Assembly: GCA_031265765.1 (NCBI GenBank)
Contig: JAISCE010000035.1
Coordinates: 1-56,038, forward strand
Length of the DNA: 56,038 nucleotides
Source of the DNA: Azoarcus sp.
GTDB taxonomy: Bacteria; Pseudomonadota; Gammaproteobacteria; Burkholderiales; Rhodocyclaceae
Direction of reading: 5' to 3'
A program made the translations under genes and the position numbers. Each line of letters opens with the position of its first letter. Within the stretch, counting starts at the first letter, position 1. Below the pieces are notes generated by a model. It worked only from the letters and a program-made list of their open reading frames with translations. It did no database searches and was not told the origin of the DNA. Positions 34,207 through 50,879 of the stretch are shown here, piece by piece.

Positions 34207-34230
34207 AAACCCCCGGAAAACCGGGGGTTT
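34207..34230. terminator. bidirectional rho-independent terminator
   Basis: AAACCCCCGG (34207-34216) pairs with CCGGGGGTTT (34221-34230) around AAAA. Read leftward, the stem is followed by TTTTGTTTT, so it is strongest for the PEP-CTERM gene, but it can serve the DUF2863 gene as well. A second hairpin (AAGGGGG/CCCCCTT, about 34243-34262) lies between it and the PEP-CTERM stop. Confidence 0.88.
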
Positions 34231-34279: not shown

Positions 34280-35026
34280 TTACGTCCGGCGGCGTCTCGC
34301 CATGGCGCCGATTAAGCCGAGACCCGCCAGCAACATGGCATAGGTTTCCGGCTCCGGGACAGAGGGGGTGATTGGCGGCGTTGGCGGAACAACAGGGCGG
34401 ATTCCCTGTACGTTGGACACAGTGAATATAGCGTCGTCCCAGTCGTCGGCGATGAACCTGCGCGTGTCCTCGAAGCCGATGAGCGCCACGTTCTCTGCGT
34501 GATAGTCGTAGAACACGTAGGAGTGGGCTGCGTTCTTATCGCCGCCAAAGCTTGAGGGAGTCTCGTTCAGCGAACCATTGCCCGTCGACCACAAGTAGAC
34601 ACCCCGTTCAGCCTTCTTGAGGGTTGTGTAGTTGACCGATATCGCAAAGAACACCTCGTCCGAGGTCGCGTTCAGTGTTTCGGAGAACGTCGTTCCCTTT
34701 TTGTAGCTCCTGAACTTGTCCTCATCGAAAAGCACCTGCCATTCGCCATCCAGGCCGTCGCGCCAGTAGTAGGTTTTGTCGTTGTGGAACAGGTCGTCGT
34801 CGGCAATGAACGTGAAGACGACGGGCTTGCTCGGGTCGGACACGAAAAGCGACCCGCCAAGCACGGCCTTATTTCCATTTTCGTCGATTGCGGTTTCCTT
34901 GAACTTGTCGCCTTTGTTCAGACGGAGCGGATCTTCCGGCTTGGGCGCTGCATGGGCCATGGACGTCGCCGCCAGGAAGACGCCCGCGCTGACTGCCAGG
35001 GCGATACGTTTGAATTTGGGCATCAT
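34280..35026 (-). CDS. PEP-CTERM sorted extracellular protein with DUF4114-like domain
   Basis: A 248-residue exported protein. It has a signal peptide at about 1-27 (ending MAHA) and a beta-rich body whose later part, about 180-210, reads VALIGFEDTRR...DWDDAIFTV, resembling DUF4114 with its acidic D-x-D-D loop. A PP-rich spacer precedes the sorting signal VPEPETYAMLLAGLGLIG, followed by a basic cluster RRRR. Exosortase A (XrtA) would cleave at the PEP motif and release or attach the protein in the exopolysaccharide matrix. AAGGAG lies 6 bases before the ATG at 35026. The upstream region shows a sigma-54 promoter, pointing to PrsK/PrsR control. The exosortase gene itself is not in the window. 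Confidence 0.88.
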   Translation of the reverse strand: MMPKFKRIALAVSAGVFLAATSMAHAAPKPEDPLRLNKGDKFKETAIDENGNKAVLGGSLFVSDPSKPVVFTFIADDDLFHNDKTYYWRDGLDGEWQVLFDEDKFRSYKKGTTFSETLNATSDEVFFAISVNYTTLKKAERGVYLWSTGNGSLNETPSSFGGDKNAAHSYVFYDYHAENVALIGFEDTRRFIADDWDDAIFTVSNVQGIRPVVPPTPPITPSVPEPETYAMLLAGLGLIGAMARRRRT

Positions 35027-35117
35027 GTTCAACTCCTTTTCGTTACCAATGACTTGCCGGATTACCTCGCCCGAGAGTTGAGGCATACATCCGGACAACT
35101 TTGCGTACCAGTCCGTA

Positions 35118-35131
35118 GCAATTTGCGTGCC
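35118..35131 (-). promoter_or_regulatory. sigma-54 (-24/-12) promoter of the PEP-CTERM gene
   Basis: Read on the minus strand, GGCAC (35131-35127), five bases, TTGC (35121-35118) match the -24/-12 consensus TGGCAC-N5-TTGC except at the first base (A). Transcription would start near 35106, giving a leader of about 80 bases. Confidence 0.75.
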
Positions 35132-35138
35132 TTGTTTT

Positions 35139-35151
35139 TAAGTAATTGAAA
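35139..35151 (-). promoter_or_regulatory. candidate IHF site
   Basis: Minus-strand TTTCAATTACTTA matches the IHF consensus WATCAANNNNTTR with one mismatch. It lies in an AT-rich tract between the sigma-54 promoter and the upstream inverted repeat, where DNA bending is usually needed for enhancer-binding proteins. Confidence 0.55.
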
Positions 35152-35181
35152 AAAAATGAAATAGTGTGTTTGTTGTTTAAA

Positions 35182-35202
35182 TGTGTAAATTTTATCGACA
35201 CA
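35182..35202. promoter_or_regulatory. candidate enhancer (PrsR/PEP-CTERM box-like) inverted repeat
   Basis: TGTGT (35182-35186) and ACACA (35198-35202) are inverted halves around an 11-base A/T-rich centre that contains ATCG. The site is centred about 60 bases upstream of the -24 element, a usual distance for an activator of sigma-54 RNA polymerase. I infer PrsR as the binder because its gene is in the window and the target is a PEP-CTERM gene. Confidence 0.5.
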
Positions 35203-35379
35203 GGTTTGTTCCGAAACGGCCATGCGGGCATGACAAGAAAACGCCAGCTATGACAGAAAATCGTTCTCCGGCCAGTTTTCGCGAGCGGGCCGGGAAAAGG
35301 CGGAGGTTTCCCGGCAATCTTCGCGTTGCGTCATGGCTGTGTAAAGTCCCGCGACAGTGATATGCGTGGAAAAGCGCGC

Positions 35380-42363: not shown

Positions 42364-42699
42364 GTGCTCAAACTGATCTTGCTTTTTCTCCTCGTTTTCA
42401 TCCTCATCGGCCTCGGCGTGTTGGGGCTCATATTGCGCGGCTTGTTCGGCATCCTGTTCGGGCGGCGCGGCCAATCGGCCCAAGGCGGCGCGGGCGGCGG
42501 CGGGCGGTCTGGCGGGGGCTTCCGGTTCGGCCGCGGCCCGCCCCAGGCGCGAGCGCCCGAGCATGTACGGGCTTGCGACGTTTGCGGCGTCCATGTGCCC
42601 GAAAGCGAAGGCTTGCGCGCGGCGGACGGGTTTTTCTGCTGCGAGGAACACCGCCGCGTTCACGAAGAAAAAAACAAAGCCGAAGCGGTCGGGCGATGA
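42364..42699 (+). CDS. PP0621-like small membrane protein with C-terminal zinc-binding motif
   Basis: A 111-residue protein with an N-terminal hydrophobic helix (about 2-28, LKLILLFLLVFILIGLGVL), a Gly/Arg-rich linker and a C-terminal CDVCGVHVPESEG...FFCCEEH that should bind zinc. This matches the PP0621 family, of unknown function. The start is taken as GTG at 42364, directly before the hydrophobic segment; upstream in-frame ATGs lack support. It overlaps pilS by 4 bases, so it belongs to the pilSR transcription unit, a common location for this family. Confidence 0.8.
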   Translation: MLKLILLFLLVFILIGLGVLGLILRGLFGILFGRRGQSAQGGAGGGGRSGGGFRFGRGPPQARAPEHVRACDVCGVHVPESEGLRAADGFFCCEEHRRVHEEKNKAEAVGR

Positions 42700-44267
42700 A
42701 CGCCGTCCCGGCGGAAACGGACTACGATCCCGCGCGGCGCAGGGCCTTGCGCTATTTCAGCTTGTTCCGGCTCGTTGTCGCCGGGTTTTTCCTCACCCTT
42801 GGCTCGCGCTTCGGCCTCGGCTTTGAAGCGCCGAAGTTGTTCGGGGCCGTCGCGCTCGTCTACCTGCTGCTCATTCTCGTCCTGGGGGTGCCGGAAGCGG
42901 GACGCCGCATCGGCTTTGCCCGGCTGATGATGCTCCAGGGCTTCATCGACCTGGCGGTTCTCGTCATCGTCATGAAAACGAGCGGCGGCTACCAGAGCGG
43001 CATCCCCGTGCTGATGATGATCGTCCTTGCCGGTTCCGGTCTCCTGACCGAAGGGCGGATCGTCCTGCTCATGGCGGCGCTGGCCACGGTCGCCGTGCTG
43101 ATGGAGAACAGTTGGCGCGCGCTCGCGGGCGGCAGGCAGGAAGCGGGAGACGCCTTCCAGGTGGCGCTGACGTGCAGTTCTTTTTTCGGCATCGCCATCA
43201 TGGCGCGTCTGCTGGCCCTGCGCGCCCGGAGCAATGCCGCGCTCGCCGCCGAGCGGAGCGTGGAACTCGCGCAACAAGAGGCCATCAACGCCCATATCAT
43301 CCATGACATGCAGGATGGCGTCATCGTCCTGCGCGCCGACGGCATCGTGCGGCAGGTCAACCCTTCGGCCTGTACGCTGCTGGGCCAGGCCCGCATCGAA
43401 GGCCGCCCGCTTGCCGAAGTCGACGCCGCCCTGGCCGAACTCTGCCGCCATGCGGCCGCCAGCGAAGTCGGGCAGCTCATCACCCTGGGACGAACCCGCC
43501 GTCTGCTGCGCTGCCGGGTCGCGGGCGGCAGCAATGGCATCGAAGGCGACAAGCTCATTTACCTGACCGACCTGGAAGACATCCAGCGCCGCATGCAACA
43601 ACTCAAGCTCGTCTCGCTCGGACGCCTCACCGCCAGCATGGCGCACGAAATCCGCAACCCGCTGTCGGCGGTCACGCAGGCCGCCGAGCTTCTCTGCGAA
43701 GAAAAGCGCGGCGACATGCAAGTGAGGCTGGCGCATATCGTCAAAGACAACGCCCGGCGCATCGAGTACATGATCCGCGATGTGCTCGCCCTTGGACGGC
43801 GTGAAAGAGCGCATCCCGAAGCCTTGTCCCTGGCCGGTTTCGTCTCCGGGCTTTTCGATGAAGCCGGGTTGCATAGCGAAAATGAAAGAGCCATTTTCCA
43901 GGCCGACATCGACCCGGCGCTGACCCTGGGCATAGACCGCAGCCACCTGCATCGGATTCTCGGCAATCTGCTTGCCAATGCCCGCCGTTATTGCAGCGGC
44001 GAACCCGGCGCGGTCCGCGTCGACGCCGTCGATGCGGGCAACGGCCAGATCAGCGTCCATGTGAGCGACGATGGCCCCGGCCTGGACGAACAGGCCCGCG
44101 TCCACCTGTTCGAGCCGTTCTTCACCACGCATGCCAAAGGCACCGGTCTCGGGCTTTACATCGCGCGCGAACTGGCCGAAGCCAATGGATTCAGCCTCGA
44201 CCTGCTGGACGGCGACCCCGCCATCTCCGGCGCGCATTTCATCCTGACCGGACGCAGCCAGCCATGA
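42696..44267 (+). CDS. pilS: Type IV pilus sensor histidine kinase PilS
   Basis: A 523-residue kinase with about six N-terminal TM helices (about 20-175), a PAS-like domain (about 200-290) and a HisKA domain with His317 in SMAHEIRNPLSAV. The HATPase domain shows N box LLANARRY, G1 DDGPGLD and G2 GTGLGLYIARELAE. PilS senses pilin levels or surface contact and phosphorylates PilR to control pilA transcription. Start 42696 overlaps the preceding gene (ATGA), and the stop overlaps pilR in the same way. Confidence 0.93.
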   Translation: MNAVPAETDYDPARRRALRYFSLFRLVVAGFFLTLGSRFGLGFEAPKLFGAVALVYLLLILVLGVPEAGRRIGFARLMMLQGFIDLAVLVIVMKTSGGYQSGIPVLMMIVLAGSGLLTEGRIVLLMAALATVAVLMENSWRALAGGRQEAGDAFQVALTCSSFFGIAIMARLLALRARSNAALAAERSVELAQQEAINAHIIHDMQDGVIVLRADGIVRQVNPSACTLLGQARIEGRPLAEVDAALAELCRHAAASEVGQLITLGRTRRLLRCRVAGGSNGIEGDKLIYLTDLEDIQRRMQQLKLVSLGRLTASMAHEIRNPLSAVTQAAELLCEEKRGDMQVRLAHIVKDNARRIEYMIRDVLALGRRERAHPEALSLAGFVSGLFDEAGLHSENERAIFQADIDPALTLGIDRSHLHRILGNLLANARRYCSGEPGAVRVDAVDAGNGQISVHVSDDGPGLDEQARVHLFEPFFTTHAKGTGLGLYIARELAEANGFSLDLLDGDPAISGAHFILTGRSQP

Positions 44268-45661
44268 CCGCCATCCCCGAGCGCCGGAACCGCGCCATCG
44301 CCAAGGACATCCTCATCGTCGACGACGAAGCGGACATCCGCGAACTGCTGGCGCTTTCGTTGTTGCGCATGGGCCTCGGCGCGGACAGCGCCGGTTCGCT
44401 TGCCGAAGCGCGCGACTTCATCCGGCAGGCCAACTACCGCCTTTGCCTGACCGACATGCGCCTGCCCGACGGCGATGGGCTGGAACTCGTCGAATACATC
44501 CAGCGCCAGCGTCCCGGCCTGCCGGTCGCCGTCATCACCGCCTTCGGCAGCATCGAGACCGCGATCCGCGCACTCAAACTCGGCGCTTTCGATTTCGTCA
44601 CCAAACCCATCGAACTTGCGGCGCTGCGCGGACTGGTGCGCCACGCCCTCGAACTCCAGCCGCCGTCCGGCGCTTCATCCGCCGCGGCCGCTTCCGCCAG
44701 CGCGGGCGGACGCGGCGGCTTCATCGGAAGCGCCCCCGCCGTGGCGCAGCTGCGCGGACAAATCGAAAAACTCGCCCGCACCCAAGCGCCGGTCTTCATC
44801 CATGGCGAATCCGGCACCGGCAAGGAAGTCATCGCCCGCCTGATCCACAAGCTCGGCATGCGCGCCGCCGGCCCCTTCGTCCCCGTCAACTGTGGCGCGA
44901 TTCCGCACGAACTCATGGAAAGCGAACTGTTCGGCCATCGCAAGGGCAGTTTTTCCGGCGCGGCGGCGGACAAAAACGGTCTTTTCCAGGCCGCCGACGG
45001 CGGCACGCTGTTCCTCGACGAAGTCGCCGATCTTCCGCTTTCCATGCAGGCCGCGCTTCTGCGCGCCATCCAGGAACGCGCCGTCCGTCCGGTCGGCGCG
45101 CAGGCCGAAGAAGCGGTCGACGTGCGCATCCTCTCGGCTTCGCATCACGACCTCGGAAAGCTCGTGGCGGAAAACCGTTTCCGGCAGGATCTCTATTTCC
45201 GCATCAACGTCATCGCCTTGCGCGTGCCGCCGCTGCGCGAACGCCTGGAAGACATCCCCAGGCTTGCCGCGCATGTCCTTGCGCGCCTGGCCGAACGCGA
45301 TGGCGCTCCGCGGCGCGCTCTCTCGCCGGAGGCCCTGTCCGCCCTGCGGCAATACTCGTTTCCCGGCAATGTGCGTGAACTGGAAAACCTTCTCGAACGC
45401 GCTTGCGCGCTTTGCGAGAGCGAAGTCATCGGCGCGGGCGACCTCGGCCTGGACAGTTTGGCGAACAGCATGCGCCCCGTTGTCGCGCTGGAGGAAGATA
45501 ACGATACCGCCGCCGACGCCGGCGAAATCTTCGACAACGAGCGTGAGCGCATGCTGAAAGCCCTCGACGAAACCCACTGGAACCGTTCGGCGGCGGCGCG
45601 CAAGCTCGGGATGACGCTCAGGCAGTTGCGCTACAGACTGCAAAAGTGGGGCATGGATTGA
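44264..45661 (+). CDS. pilR: Sigma-54-dependent response regulator PilR
   Basis: A 465-residue NtrC-family activator. The receiver domain has phosphoacceptor Asp64 (LTDMRLPDG), the AAA+ domain has Walker A GESGTGKE (181-188) and Walker B TLFLDEVADLP, and the C-terminal Fis-type HTH contains NRSAAARKLGMTLRQLRYRL. The sigma-54 contact loop reads GSFSGA (228-233) instead of GAFTGA or the GSFTGA I recall for other PilR proteins, a Thr-to-Ser change at the key position. It activates pilA with RpoN. It closes the unit; a 264-base gap precedes the exopolysaccharide genes. Confidence 0.93.
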   Translation: MTAIPERRNRAIAKDILIVDDEADIRELLALSLLRMGLGADSAGSLAEARDFIRQANYRLCLTDMRLPDGDGLELVEYIQRQRPGLPVAVITAFGSIETAIRALKLGAFDFVTKPIELAALRGLVRHALELQPPSGASSAAAASASAGGRGGFIGSAPAVAQLRGQIEKLARTQAPVFIHGESGTGKEVIARLIHKLGMRAAGPFVPVNCGAIPHELMESELFGHRKGSFSGAAADKNGLFQAADGGTLFLDEVADLPLSMQAALLRAIQERAVRPVGAQAEEAVDVRILSASHHDLGKLVAENRFRQDLYFRINVIALRVPPLRERLEDIPRLAAHVLARLAERDGAPRRALSPEALSALRQYSFPGNVRELENLLERACALCESEVIGAGDLGLDSLANSMRPVVALEEDNDTAADAGEIFDNERERMLKALDETHWNRSAAARKLGMTLRQLRYRLQKWGMD

Positions 45662-45831: not shown

Positions 45832-45925
45832 ATAGCTAACCGTTATTGTAGTCAATGCAAGGTGAAGGCTGTTTGTTTATTCGTTCATGTGTTTGCCCGG
45901 ACGGCGCCGGGTCTTCGGAAATGTC

Positions 45926-47311
45926 ATGCTGAGAATATTTAGCCATTATTTCCCGCTGCATGTCGTGCGGCGGCTTTGTCTCGATTTATTCCTGTTCATG
46001 GTAATCGTCGTCGCCTCGGCTTTTTTCCTGCCTCGCTCCGGCGAAATGGAAGGGGAAGGATTGTTCCTGTCGGCGCTGGGCTACGCTATGACGATGGTGG
46101 TCGTCAGTTTTGCGTTCGGCCTGTACAGGCCGGTGGATGAGGACAGTCCGCGCATCGCGTTTGCGCGCCTCGTGCTGGCCGTGCTGTTTTGTTTGCCCGT
46201 GGCTTACGGCCTTATCCTGTTTCTGCCATGGGGCGGCTTTTCTTCATTGGCGATGCAGGCCCAGGTGCTTGCGTTCTCCCTGGCCGTACTGATTTTGCGG
46301 GTATCCATCAATCGCAGCCAGGCTTCGTCGCTTTTTGCTCCCCGCATATTGGTTATCGGCGCTGGCGAGGACGCGCTGGAAGTGCAGCGCATTTTGTTGC
46401 GCCCGGAACAGGGAAGGGTGGAAGTGCAGGGCTTTTTTTCTTCGGAAGGCGACGAGGAAAAGCTCGTCGATGCCGGAAAAATCATCTCCGCCGGCAGCCT
46501 CGTCAACGTGGTCAGGCAGTTGAAAATCGACGAAATCATCGTTGCCGTGCGTGAACGGCGCGGCAGCGCATTGCCTGTGCGCGAACTGCTCGATTGCAAG
46601 CTTCTCGGCCTGAAGATCTTCGATTTGTCTTCGTTCCACGAAAGGGTTCGCCGGCAGGTGCGGCTCGATTCCCTGCGCATGAGCTGGCTGATTTACGGCG
46701 ACGGTTTCCGGCAGTCCTTGCGGCAAGTGTTCGTCAAGCGCATGTTCGATCTGGCGGTGGGCGCTGTTTTGCTGATCCTGAGCTTGCCCTTGCAGATCGT
46801 GGCCGCGCTCCTGATCGTGTCCGAGGATCGCGGCCCGGTGTTTTACCGTCAGGAACGGGTCGGGCTGGGCGGCCAGGTCTTCAGGGTTCTCAAGTTTCGC
46901 AGCATGCGTCCCGATGCCGAAAAAAAAGGAGAGCCGCTTCTGACGGCTTCGGACGATGGCCGGATCACGCGGATCGGACGCATCATCCGCTGGCTGCGCA
47001 TCGATGAACTGCCGCAGTTGCTGAACGTGCTCGTGGGGGACATGAGCCTGGTCGGACCGCGCCCGGAGCGGCCCTATTTCGTCGATCGCCTGGCGCGCGA
47101 GATTCCGTTTTACGGCATACGCCATTGCGTCAAGCCGGGCATCACCGGTTGGGCGCAGGTGCGATACCGGCAGGAGGTCTCCCCGGCGGACGAAGCGACG
47201 CAAAAGTTGCAATACGACCTGTATTACGTCAAAAATCACACGCTGGTGCTCGATATGCTCGTCCTGCTCGAAACCGTCCATGTGGTGCTGATGGGCAAGG
47301 GCGCGCGGTGA
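45926..47311 (+). CDS. PEP-CTERM/XrtA-type exopolysaccharide priming sugar transferase (EpsB-like)
   Basis: A 461-residue polyprenyl-phosphate glycosyl-1-phosphate transferase. Four or so N-terminal TM helices (15-130), a Rossmann-like region (about 145-260, ILVIGAGEDALEV), a membrane re-entrant helix (about 275-300) and a catalytic bacterial sugar transferase domain are present; the last shows KRMFDLAVG, ERVGLGGQVFRVLKFRSM, RIDELPQLLNVLVGDMSLVGPRPE and the terminal YDLYYVKN. It starts exopolysaccharide repeat-unit assembly on undecaprenyl phosphate. Neighbouring prsK-prsR places it in the PEP-CTERM (TIGR03013-like) branch. Start 45926 (MLRIFSHYFP) is the family-typical N terminus; an in-frame ATG lies at 45887. 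Confidence 0.9.
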   Translation: MLRIFSHYFPLHVVRRLCLDLFLFMVIVVASAFFLPRSGEMEGEGLFLSALGYAMTMVVVSFAFGLYRPVDEDSPRIAFARLVLAVLFCLPVAYGLILFLPWGGFSSLAMQAQVLAFSLAVLILRVSINRSQASSLFAPRILVIGAGEDALEVQRILLRPEQGRVEVQGFFSSEGDEEKLVDAGKIISAGSLVNVVRQLKIDEIIVAVRERRGSALPVRELLDCKLLGLKIFDLSSFHERVRRQVRLDSLRMSWLIYGDGFRQSLRQVFVKRMFDLAVGAVLLILSLPLQIVAALLIVSEDRGPVFYRQERVGLGGQVFRVLKFRSMRPDAEKKGEPLLTASDDGRITRIGRIIRWLRIDELPQLLNVLVGDMSLVGPRPERPYFVDRLAREIPFYGIRHCVKPGITGWAQVRYRQEVSPADEATQKLQYDLYYVKNHTLVLDMLVLLETVHVVLMGKGAR

Positions 47312-47416
47312 GCGGACGGACGCGGCTGGCGCGCCGTCGATACAGAAGGGGCCATGCCCTGCCTGTATGCGATTCTCCCCCTGAAGGGGGAGGTTCCGAA
47401 CCGGAGTCGATTTTCG

Positions 47417-49525
47417 ATGAATGAATCCATGACGCTGATGGATCTCGCGGACTGGAGTTACGGCCTGACCGTGGCCGTCTTTGTCGGGTTTGCGCTTTAC
47501 TTGTATGCGGCATGGCGCGGCGCGCTGGTCGGGGGCCTCCTGCTGTTGACGGTGGTATTGTCCTGCGGCTGGGCGGCGTCGAGCCTGTGGTATGCCCATT
47601 CGCCTTCGCATGGGCGTTATCTCTGGATGTCCGGGCTGGATGTGTTGTGCGCCGCGGGCTGGCTCGGGTTTTTGCTGATTTTGCTGCGTCCCTTGCTGCG
47701 CGGAAACTGGAACCGTTTCCTCGCCACCTCGGTCGGGCTGCTCGGGGCGCAGGCGGCCGGGGTGATCGCTCTCGGTCTCGGCCTGGCGACGGATGCCAGG
47801 GCGCTCAAGATGAATCTCGGCGGGTCGATGGCGACTTCGATTCTGGGACTGGTGCTGGTCGAGCAGCTCTACCGCGGCATCGACCGGGATATGCGTCTGG
47901 CGCTGAAGCCGCTGTGCATAGGGCTGTGCGCCGCCTTTATATTCGACCTGTATTTTTTCGCCGATGCTTTCTTGTTCGGACGGCCCAATCCCGTCATCTG
48001 GGTCGTGCGCGGCCCCGCCCATGCGCTGATTCTCCCGTTGGTAGCGGTGTCGAGCGCGCGCAATCCCTCATGGTCGCTGCGCATATCCCTATCGCGCGAA
48101 GTGGTTTTCCATACCACGGCGCTGGGTATTTCCGGGTTCTATCTGCTTGCGGTGTCCGTCGTGGGCTACTACGTGCGCAACTTCGGCGGCGAGTGGGGAA
48201 AGGCTTTGCAGACGATGCTGCTGTTCGCGGCGCTGCTGCTGCTGGCGGTGTTCATGACATCGACATCGCAGCGCGCCAAACTGCGGGTATTCATCAGCAA
48301 GCATCTGTTTCGCTACCGTTACGATTACCGTACCGAATGGCTGCGGTTCACCAAGTCCCTGTCGGCGGCCAATGGGCAACTCGATCTGGGCCGCTCGGTC
48401 GTGACCGCGCTCGCCAACCTGGTGGAAAGCCCCGGCGGCGCGCTGTGGCTGCGAAGCGGCGCGGAGGCCGATGGCTGCTACACGGTCCATGCCCGGGTCA
48501 ATTATCCGGCGGTGGATGTGACGGAAACGGCCGACAGCCCCTTGCTGCGTTTCATGCGCGAGCGGGACTGGATCATCAATCTCGAAGAATATCGCCGCAG
48601 TTCGGCAGCCTATCCCAAGCTGGCGCTGCCGGATTGGCTGGCGGCGGTTTTTCCCGATGCCTGGCTGTTGATTCCGCTCATCGGGGACATGGGCGTGATC
48701 GGATTCGTCCTGCTTGCCGCGCCGCGGACGCGGTTCGAGATCAATTGGGAAGTCCTCGACCTGCTCAAGACCGCCCGGCACCAGGCGGCCAGCGATCTGG
48801 AGCGGATGCTGGCGGTCGAGGATTTGCTGGAAGCGCGAAAATTTGAATCCTTCACCCGCATGTCGGCTTTTGTCGTCCATGACCTCAAAAACCTCGTTGC
48901 CCAGTTGTCGCTGATGCTGCGCAATGCCGAACGTCACAAGGACAACCCCGAATTCCAGGCCGACATGCTCGAAACGGTGGCGCACGTCGAGGCGAGGATG
49001 CGCGGCCTGATGGCGCAATTGCAGGAAAAGCGTTCGATCGATTCGCCGCGCGCACTCGGCCTGGTGAAGACGCTGGAAAATATTTGTCATGCCAAGCGGG
49101 AGCAGCGCCCTCTCGTGGAACTCAGATTGTCGCAGTCGTGCGACGCGTTTGTGGTACAAGCACATCCTGAACGGCTTGAGCGCGTGATTGGACATGTCGT
49201 GCAAAATGCGCTCGAAGCCACGCCGGAGACGGGGAGCGTGGTCATCACGCTCGCCGCCTGCGACCAGGGGCGGGTACGCATCATGGTGGAAGACACCGGC
49301 TGCGGCATGTCGGAAACTTTCATCCGCGAGCGCCTTTCGCACCCGTTCGAGACAACCAAGGCGAGCGGCATGGGCATTGGCGTATACGAAACCCGCCGGT
49401 ACGTCCGCGAACTGGGGGGGGATGTGTCGTATGAGAGTGCGGAAGGCATTGGAACGAAGGTGAGCATCGAACTCCCTTTGCACGAACGGCTGGACGCGGT
49501 ACAGGAAGGAGAAAAGCTTGACTGA
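47417..49525 (+). CDS. prsK: PEP-CTERM system sensor histidine kinase PrsK
   Basis: A 702-residue membrane kinase with about nine N-terminal TM helices (15-290), a GAF-like domain (about 315-460), a phosphoacceptor His488 in AFVVHDLKNLVAQLS and a HATPase domain with VQNALEATPE, EDTGCGM and GMGIGVYETRRYV. The many-TM plus GAF layout and adjacency to prsR identify PrsK. It should phosphorylate PrsR to control PEP-CTERM genes. GGAG lies 10 bases before the ATG at 47417. Its stop overlaps the prsR TTG start by 8 bases. Confidence 0.9.
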   Translation: MNESMTLMDLADWSYGLTVAVFVGFALYLYAAWRGALVGGLLLLTVVLSCGWAASSLWYAHSPSHGRYLWMSGLDVLCAAGWLGFLLILLRPLLRGNWNRFLATSVGLLGAQAAGVIALGLGLATDARALKMNLGGSMATSILGLVLVEQLYRGIDRDMRLALKPLCIGLCAAFIFDLYFFADAFLFGRPNPVIWVVRGPAHALILPLVAVSSARNPSWSLRISLSREVVFHTTALGISGFYLLAVSVVGYYVRNFGGEWGKALQTMLLFAALLLLAVFMTSTSQRAKLRVFISKHLFRYRYDYRTEWLRFTKSLSAANGQLDLGRSVVTALANLVESPGGALWLRSGAEADGCYTVHARVNYPAVDVTETADSPLLRFMRERDWIINLEEYRRSSAAYPKLALPDWLAAVFPDAWLLIPLIGDMGVIGFVLLAAPRTRFEINWEVLDLLKTARHQAASDLERMLAVEDLLEARKFESFTRMSAFVVHDLKNLVAQLSLMLRNAERHKDNPEFQADMLETVAHVEARMRGLMAQLQEKRSIDSPRALGLVKTLENICHAKREQRPLVELRLSQSCDAFVVQAHPERLERVIGHVVQNALEATPETGSVVITLAACDQGRVRIMVEDTGCGMSETFIRERLSHPFETTKASGMGIGVYETRRYVRELGGDVSYESAEGIGTKVSIELPLHERLDAVQEGEKLD

Positions 49526-50879
49526 AAAACGGCGAACCTTGTTGATCGTCGAGGACGATCCGGCCTTGCAGAAACAAATGCGCTGGGCCTTCGACGGTTT
49601 CGAGACCCTGATGGCGGATGACCGCGAGAGCGCGATTGCACAGATGCGCCGCTTTGAACCGGCGGTGGTGACCATGGATCTGGGGTTGCCGCCCGCGCCC
49701 GACGATGTGAGCGAGGGCTTCGCGCTGCTTGGCGAAACGCTGGCGCTGGCGCCGGACACCAAAATCATCGTCCTGACCGGCCAGCACGACCGCGAAAATG
49801 CGGTACGCGCCGTCGGCATGGGCGCTTACGACTTCTTCAGCAAACCGTTCGAGCCGGAACTATTGACGCTGACCATCGAGCGCGCTTTCCGCCTCTACGA
49901 TCTGCAAGCCGAGAACAGAAAGTTGCAACAGGCCAAGGCGGGTTCGGTGGCGGGGCTGATTACGCGCGATGCCGGCATGTTGAAAATCTGCCGTACCGTC
50001 GAAAGGGTTGCTTCGGCTTCGGTGACCGTGGCGCTCCTCGGCGACAGCGGCACCGGCAAGGAAGTGCTGGCGCACGGACTGCATGTGCTGTCGCCGCGCG
50101 CCGAAGAAAGATTCGTCGCCATCAACTGCGCGGCGATTCCCGAAAGCCTGCTCGAAAGCGAACTTTTCGGCTACGAAAAAGGCGCTTTTACCGGCGCAGT
50201 CCGCCAGACGCCCGGCAAGATCGAAATCGCCCATAAAGGCACGTTGTTTCTCGATGAAATCGGCGATCTGCCCATGCCGCTCCAGGCCAAGCTCTTGAGG
50301 TTCCTGCAAGAGCGGGTGATCGAACGCCTCGGGGGCCGGCAGGAGATTCCGGTGGATGTTCGCGTCGTTTGCGCCACCCACCGCGACCTTCGCGCCCAGA
50401 TACAGGCGGGCCTGTTCCGCGAAGACCTGTACTATCGTTTGGCGGAAATCGTGGTGACGATCCCGCCCTTGCGCGAGCGCGATGGCGATGCCGTGCTGCT
50501 CGCGCATCACTTCGTGCAGCGTTTTGCACGGGAGAATGGGCGCAGTGCGCTCCAACTCGGCGAGGACGCCATCGCGGCCATCGAAACCCATGGCTGGCCG
50601 GGCAATGTGCGCGAACTGGAAAACTGCCTCAAGCGCGCCGTCATCATGGCCGATGGCAGCCGCATCACCGCCGACGATCTCGGTCTTGGCAGCGCGGGCG
50701 ACGAGGCGCTGGAGCATCTCAACCTGCGCCATGTGCGCGAACTTGCCGAACGCCAGGCCGTTGTGCGGGTATTGGCCCGAACCAACGGCAATATTGCGCG
50801 CGCGGCGGAAATTCTTGGCATCAGCCGTCCTTCGCTTTACGATCTCATGAGCCGGTTGGGACTGAAAAAAGAAGGCTGA
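49518..50879 (+). CDS. prsR: PEP-CTERM-box response regulator PrsR (sigma-54 activator)
   Basis: A 453-residue NtrC-family activator with receiver Asp54 (TMDLGLPPA), an AAA+ domain with Walker A GDSGTGKE (176-183), an intact GAFTGA loop (222-227) and GTLFLDEIGDLP, and a C-terminal Fis-type HTH (GNIARAAEILGISRPSLYDLMSRLG). The receiver loop is longer than usual after the Asp (PAPDDVSEGF), typical of PrsR. It works with RpoN on PEP-CTERM gene promoters. The start is TTG 49518 with AAGGAG upstream, coupled to prsK. A matching target promoter is present at 35118-35202. Confidence 0.92.
   Translation: MTEKRRTLLIVEDDPALQKQMRWAFDGFETLMADDRESAIAQMRRFEPAVVTMDLGLPPAPDDVSEGFALLGETLALAPDTKIIVLTGQHDRENAVRAVGMGAYDFFSKPFEPELLTLTIERAFRLYDLQAENRKLQQAKAGSVAGLITRDAGMLKICRTVERVASASVTVALLGDSGTGKEVLAHGLHVLSPRAEERFVAINCAAIPESLLESELFGYEKGAFTGAVRQTPGKIEIAHKGTLFLDEIGDLPMPLQAKLLRFLQERVIERLGGRQEIPVDVRVVCATHRDLRAQIQAGLFREDLYYRLAEIVVTIPPLRERDGDAVLLAHHFVQRFARENGRSALQLGEDAIAAIETHGWPGNVRELENCLKRAVIMADGSRITADDLGLGSAGDEALEHLNLRHVRELAERQAVVRVLARTNGNIARAAEILGISRPSLYDLMSRLGLKKEG

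Follow-up and report, generated by a model that had tools for sequence, protein, structure and literature searches.

A predicted sigma-54 promoter of the PrsK/PrsR regulon upstream of a PEP-CTERM gene in Azoarcus sp., and the phased geometry of its counterparts in related genomes

Sigma-54 promoters of the NtrC/NifA type consist of upstream activator sites, an IHF-induced bend and a -24/-12 element, and are served by an AAA+ activator with a GAFTGA motif that reaches the promoter by IHF-assisted looping. For PEP-CTERM genes, Haft et al. predicted in 2006 a site composed of one motif (motif 1) and a sigma-54 motif (motif 2), which was assigned to PrsR/PrsK (PMC1569441). This site was found at 99 of 167 PEP-CTERM genes, and a few sites preceded other genes (PMC1569441). 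A promoter of this kind of gene has been characterized in Aquincola tertiaricarbonis: pepA has a mapped start site, a -24/-12 element, RpoN1-dependent expression and a predicted enhancer upstream, and in the passages concerned PrsK-PrsR is called 'probably' involved (PMC9850573). In addition, DAP-chip of DVUA0057, a predicted PEP-CTERM regulator, enriched its five predicted PEP-CTERM targets, and the same report states that a validated binding motif was not obtained for this regulator (PMC3333781); we take DVUA0057 to be the PrsR counterpart. No report on IHF sites or helical phasing of PEP-CTERM box promoters was found in the open-licence literature searched.

In this study, we analyzed a PEP-CTERM gene and its upstream DNA in a stretch of 56,038 nucleotides from Azoarcus sp. 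(contig JAISCE010000035.1), which as a whole is referred to as the window. The PEP-CTERM gene, its neighborhood and the regulatory genes encoded in the window are as follows.

34207..34230, minus strand: terminator-like hairpin with a T tail, just 3' of the PEP-CTERM gene (two such sites in the stretch, 2.0 expected)
34280..35026, minus strand: PEP-CTERM protein gene, ATG at 35026 or 35023 after AGGAG; C-terminal VPEPETYAMLLAGLGLIGAMARRRRT, N-terminus signal-peptide-like by eye
36765-35380, minus strand: HtrA/DegP-like protease gene, family match below the curated cut-off
42573-45661, plus strand: sensor kinase and NtrC-type regulator pair, PilS/PilR-like by eye (regulator gene, 44276-45661)
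45887..47311, plus strand: EpsB_2 / XrtA-PEP-CTERM system glycosyltransferase (TIGR03013, 455.6 bits, cut-off 393.35)
47354..49525, plus strand: PrsK sensor kinase (TIGR02916, 792.9 bits, cut-off 300)
49539..50879, plus strand: PrsR (TIGR02915, 736 bits, cut-off 502.6); provisional start codon, with the reading frame open further upstream

The gene at 35026-34280 had been described in a first-pass annotation as a PEP-CTERM/DUF4114 gene. Its PEP-CTERM tail is clear (PF07589, 38.9 bits, E 7.5e-10, above the Pfam cut-off), whereas the DUF4114 match remained below the Pfam threshold (17.5 bits against a cut-off of 27, E 0.0085). The hairpin downstream would fit a single-gene unit, if weakly, and a gap of 353 bp lies between the HtrA/DegP-like gene and the PEP-CTERM gene. 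The annotation had also recognized PrsK and PrsR in the same window and an intact GAFTGA in PrsR. Both proteins indeed score far above their cut-offs, and the PrsR match extends over the full length of the model, with a receiver, an AAA+ domain containing GAFTGA and a C-terminal HTH-like part; the motifs GDSGTGKE, GTLFLDE, GAFTGA and MDLGLP (Walker A/B, receiver) could be seen by eye in its translation. The pair at 42573-45661 did not score above the cut-off of any listed NCBIfam model. In the regulator of this pair, GSFSGA replaces GAFTGA.

The following elements are present in the gap in the order of the minus strand, and are followed by AGGAG and ATG.

35340..35356, minus strand: second, distal box TGTCGCGGGACTTTACA, an exact 17-mer 156 bp upstream of the proximal box and just past the stop of the HtrA-like gene
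35184..35200, minus strand: proximal PrsR-type box TGTCGATAAAATTTACA, core of an inverted repeat at 35182-35202; 69 bp from box start to GG
35139..35151, minus strand: IHF-like site TTTCAATTACTTA, one mismatch to the IHF consensus WATCAANNNNTTR; its centre lies some 55 bp from the start of the box, and it ends 7 bases before GG
35117..35133, minus strand: sigma-54 -24/-12 element AAGGCACGCAAATTGCT, GG at 35131-35130 and GC at 35119-35118; 11 of 13 consensus positions

GGCAC-N5-TTGC and an IHF-like site with one mismatch had both been noted upstream of the gene, and they are present at 35131-35118 (GGCACGCAAATTGC) and 35151-35139, respectively. The former is the sole exact match in the window; however, about one match per window is expected by chance and the -24/-12 element alone therefore proves nothing. 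It has the GG-N10-GC arrangement, and rpoN gave one match in the genome. If the C of -12 is 35118, the predicted transcription start is close to 35106, which would give a leader of about 80 nt. Between 34150 and 35420 no sigma-70-like promoter was found, 0.5 being expected by chance. The stretch GGTACGCAAAGTTGT directly 3' of the -24/-12 element resembles such an element without GC at -12, and was not counted.

The third element in the first-pass annotation, a TGTGT...ACACA repeat about 60 bases above -24, was located correctly (its centre is 61 bp above GG), but its conserved part is not the outer arms. TGTGT-N11-ACACA at 35202-35182 is a single match in the window against 0.02 expected, and the conserved core is the inner 17-mer TGTCG-N6-YTTACA at 35200-35184. 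Positions flanking this 17-mer show a mild preference only, namely 52% G on the 5' side and 49% C on the 3' side in 119 family boxes. The second copy at 35356-35340 had been overlooked. These two boxes, both exact, are the only window matches to the 17-mer at up to one mismatch, a number that was also reached by 15 of 100 shuffles.

Compared with sigma-54 promoters of the NtrC/NifA type, the locus has the same set of parts, i.e., putative activator sites, an IHF-like site, -24/-12 and a GAFTGA activator, whereas the activator box, the PrsR subfamily and the preferred distance from box to IHF site are specific to the present set. Because Haft et al. describe such a site together with a sigma-54 motif and PrsR/PrsK, the window locus is a member of the site class that they predicted (PMC1569441). 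When the text of their report, as distinct from its logo, is used for comparison, both sites have a 17-nt motif ending in TTTACA (PMC1569441). The published spacer is 32-92 nt and here 50 nt separate the box from the -24/-12 element if the motif ends are drawn alike; the PEP-CTERM start codon lies 90 nt further on, the published mean being 71 (range 23-221) (PMC1569441). In both cases the motif may be repeated, and PrsK/PrsR occur in the genome near an exopolysaccharide gene (PMC1569441). In contrast, neither an IHF site nor a palindrome appears in the text of that report, whose relevant passages give spacing only as a mean and a spread, whereas the geometry of box, IHF site and -24 is measured here (PMC1569441). 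The pepA promoter also resembles the window locus in having a PEP-CTERM gene, -24/-12 and a predicted enhancer upstream, the difference being that RpoN dependence was measured in A. tertiaricarbonis whereas the window promoter is known from sequence (PMC9850573). The same source bears on a further statement of the first-pass annotation, that PrsR and RpoN control PEP-CTERM genes in floc-forming bacteria: RpoN1 dependence of one such gene is documented, whereas PrsR control does not appear in the relevant passages (PMC9850573).

The 17-mer was found by orienting the 14 PEP-CTERM matches of the genome and comparing their upstream DNA. TGTCG-N6-YTTACA has 13 matches in the 2.58-Mb genome, against one for the reversed pattern, and 10 of these 13 boxes sit in gaps upstream of PEP-CTERM genes (some gaps being overlapped by unconvincing mechanical ORFs). 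Six of the 10 boxes are directly followed by -24/-12, with 68, 68, 68, 69, 69 and 103 bp to GG, and the other four are extra copies further up. Two further PEP-CTERM genes, L016 and L021, have a box with final G for A (one mismatch) and -24/-12 at 82 bp in each. Thus, with exact and one-mismatch boxes, the unit of box and -24/-12 is present at 8 of 14 PEP-CTERM genes with a distance of 68-103 bp between box start and GG (69 bp for the window gene). A convincing box was not detected at the remaining six genes even with a weight matrix; one of them is a 39-aa frame and one has its upstream DNA cut by a contig end. The first-pass annotation had proposed a genome scan of this kind as a way to refute the link to PEP-CTERM genes, and the scan found the motif enriched in front of them.

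Of the three boxes elsewhere in the genome, one precedes a BrnA-antitoxin-like gene and two (L031 and L033) have neither a -24/-12 match nor a PEP-CTERM gene. The former (L032, C56:19441 region) consists of a box, an IHF-like site and -24/-12 before a 75-aa BrnA-antitoxin-like ORF (PF14384, E 3.3e-10); the first G of its GG is A, and the unit is otherwise intact with an offset of 69. Another BrnA-like ORF (L019:121-303 on C49, E 1.9e-17) immediately precedes the region with three boxes that belongs to a different PEP-CTERM gene. At C49:34902-35226 (L028-L030), three boxes spaced by about 150-158 bp, with the central box in inverted orientation, lie in front of a single PEP-CTERM gene. The L031 box (C50:10710 region) lies beside a short ORF that by eye resembles a remnant of the C-terminal part of a class A beta-lactamase (KTGTG), with a glycine-rich lipoprotein-like gene on the opposite strand. 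The L033 box (C62:27886 region) is found between the 3' ends of permease-like and Hcp-like genes (by eye) and is either a chance match or an orphan site.

Occurrence of the box was then compared with that of PrsR across 121 family genomes; PrsR exceeds the cut-off in 57 of them (PrsR+) and not in the other 64 (PrsR-). PrsR+ genomes contain 465 boxes (2.08/Mb) and PrsR- genomes 57 (0.27/Mb), the latter density being close to that of the reversed-pattern control (0.26/Mb). Box density is thus about eight-fold higher with PrsR (Mann-Whitney p about 3e-18 without a correction for kinship). Together with the motif enrichment in the host genome, this tracking of PrsR by boxes across the 121 genomes supports the original proposal that the PEP-CTERM gene is a likely PrsR target. 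There are exceptions: G036 has 15 boxes and G074 four, although neither has a PrsR match above the cut-off; conversely, no more than one exact box was found in each of four PrsR+ genomes. The best PrsR match in G036, a draft of about 210 contigs, reaches 386 bits; either an assembly gap or another regulator that uses the box may account for this. Among 124 PEP-CTERM-like ORFs in 80 betaproteobacterial loci (some ORFs being pattern artefacts and some lacking upstream DNA) an exact box was present at only 9, and the consensus for this reason looks clade-limited.

Promoter geometry was assessed for all 144 boxes among the matches listed for PrsR+ genomes other than the host (18 genomes, three batches). 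A -24/-12 element (at least 10 of 13 positions) was present 35-130 bp downstream of 93 of these 144 boxes, compared to 3/143 upstream, 4/144 on the opposite strand and 3/144 far downstream; 51 of the 144 had no such match. The rate was 85/119 in the first two batches and 8/25 in the third, which comprises 25 boxes, mostly passed over at first and many G+C-rich inside. Because passed-over boxes have -24/-12 less often, the rate of the first two batches is biased upward. Using 93/144 rather than 85/119 did not alter our assessment, since the controls remain at 3-4 matches and the phase did not change.

Distances from box to GG in the first batch fall mainly in the classes 68-71, 79-83, 90-93, 102-108 and 114-116 bp, with a best period of 11.3 bp (R 0.774, n=42); none of 5000 null sets reached this R. 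The held-out second batch, with the period preset to 11.35, gave R 0.824 (n=43; 0/20000 jittered sets as high), and the third batch gave R 0.825 (n=8). For all listed promoters R is 0.801 (n=93), and the best period is 11.25. The period itself is loosely fixed, with held-out R of 0.80-0.83 over 11.0 to 11.6 and 0.777 at 10.5 (0.703 at 10.5 for all 93). With the duplicate L200 removed from the first two batches, mean phases are similar in 10 genera (0.9-2.0), and R is 0.822 (n=51) when the most heavily sampled genus is left out. Distances in the host genome lie within about 1.5 bp of the family phase. These data suggest that the three parts are held at fixed angles around the helix, probably for folding the DNA into a compact complex.

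In the first set of 48 promoters (6 from the host, 42 from the family), 26 carry an IHF-like site with up to one mismatch between box and -24. As A/T content is uneven, permuted and reversed consensuses were used as controls beside a mononucleotide shuffle: 300 permuted consensuses gave a mean of 5.1 and a maximum of 18, and the reversed consensus was found in 2/48. The held-out second batch yielded 22/43 (permuted mean 5.6, maximum 18). Among all listed family promoters, 48 of 93 have a site and 45 do not. For the spacing classes 68-71 and 79-83, the first two sets together provide 38 IHF-like sites (counted per site, host genome included), 28 of which have their centre 54-56 bp away from the start of the box; in longer spacing classes the centres are near 54, 65 and 77, with few elsewhere. 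In five host promoters the site ends 6-7 bases before GG. The window promoter, with its one-mismatch site between box and -24, is among these five; the genome has five matches to the HU/IHF family, IHF and HU taken together.

Several other explanations were considered for these observations. One is that the inverted repeat, the IHF-like site and the -24/-12 element are chance matches in an A/T-rich spacer; in its favor, a -24/-12 pattern alone is expected about once per window and a one-mismatch box about 0.8 times. However, this reading can practically be dismissed, given that the elements recur together with fixed spacing in front of several PEP-CTERM genes, and given the excess of -24/-12 at listed boxes over the 3-4 in controls, the replicated phasing and the concentration of boxes in PrsR+ genomes. 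Alternatively, the box could be real and bound by another enhancer-binding protein, e.g., the NtrC-family regulator at 44276-45661 or any of three more in the genome. Four additional NtrC-type regulators score below the cut-off of TIGR02915 (283-351 bits), one of them in the window, and boxes occur in G036, where no PrsR match exceeds the cut-off. Homologs of the neighboring regulator (E <= 1e-110) are present in 107 of the 121 family genomes and its presence therefore does not explain the box distribution; 54 of the 64 PrsR- genomes have it and yet show boxes at background level only, and G030, G091, G093 and G114, which are PrsR+ and lack it, still hold 3-11 boxes each. On this comparison, which covered the neighboring regulator, binding by a regulator other than PrsR appears improbable.

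A third possibility concerns IHF only: PrsR and sigma-54 would act, and the IHF-like element would only reflect intrinsic bending of an A/T-rich spacer, IHF being dispensable. The presence of a site in only about half of the promoters, and HU/IHF matches that may belong to either protein, fit this view, but same-letter permuted consensuses stayed below the observed counts, the reversed consensus was nearly absent and the centres of the sites cluster at 54-56 bp after the start of the box. We regard a dispensable IHF as unlikely, if a more serious contender than the two preceding explanations. The element upstream of the PEP-CTERM gene is very probably an RpoN (sigma-54) promoter belonging to the PrsK/PrsR regulon, and participation of IHF is likely, with somewhat less assurance. 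We infer that PrsR contacts the inverted repeat directly.

In the mechanism that we propose for this promoter, phosphorylated PrsR would bind the 17-bp imperfect palindrome TGTCG-N6-YTTACA, of which the locus has two copies, while RNA polymerase with RpoN would occupy -24/-12, 69 bp downstream of the box. IHF would bend the A/T-rich spacer such that the AAA+ ring of PrsR could reach the closed complex and melt it. Because the arm is short, the box, the IHF site and the promoter would have to share a fixed helix face, and spacing would therefore vary in steps of about 11.3 bp. The predicted outcome is activator-dependent production of the exported PEP-CTERM protein, presumably alongside exopolysaccharide synthesis.

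With respect to the family as a whole, it appears reasonably likely that PrsR promoters obey a rigid three-element rule, in which GG is about 69, 81, 92, 103.5 or 115 bp from the box start and the IHF centre is at 54-56 bp or farther by one or two helical turns. PrsR would then act in a fixed-geometry, IHF-bent complex and not as a flexible distant enhancer, and its regulon would be wider than PEP-CTERM genes, including two undescribed groups of proteins with Tat-signal-like N-termini. Phasing of about 11.3 bp, enrichment of IHF-like sites and their centring, mostly at 54-56 bp, in the commoner classes add to the prediction of Haft et al. and did not turn up in the literature searched. That prediction gains support from the box counts over 121 genomes, and a sharp 17-bp consensus is now available for this clade. 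The added geometry makes PrsR control directly testable by spacing mutants. In addition, regulon prediction becomes feasible, including exported proteins without a PEP-CTERM tail that possibly act in the same extracellular matrix.

Predicted targets beyond PEP-CTERM genes were seen in the first two batches. There, 81 promoters had a downstream ORF that could be used, and a simple pattern detected a PEP-CTERM tail for 53 of them (further tails may be encoded outside the sequence examined). Eight non-PEP promoters are followed by a protein with a Tat-signal-like N-terminus (RRRLL-type, RRRLLxGA), seven of them recognized by pattern and L156 by eye. Scans of L140, L161 and L174 against Pfam, and of L140, L156, L161 and L174 against NCBIfam, gave no match. 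BLAST splits the eight proteins into two groups, one comprising L156, L174, L216 and L230 (with L161 as a weaker member) and the other L140, L211 and L237.
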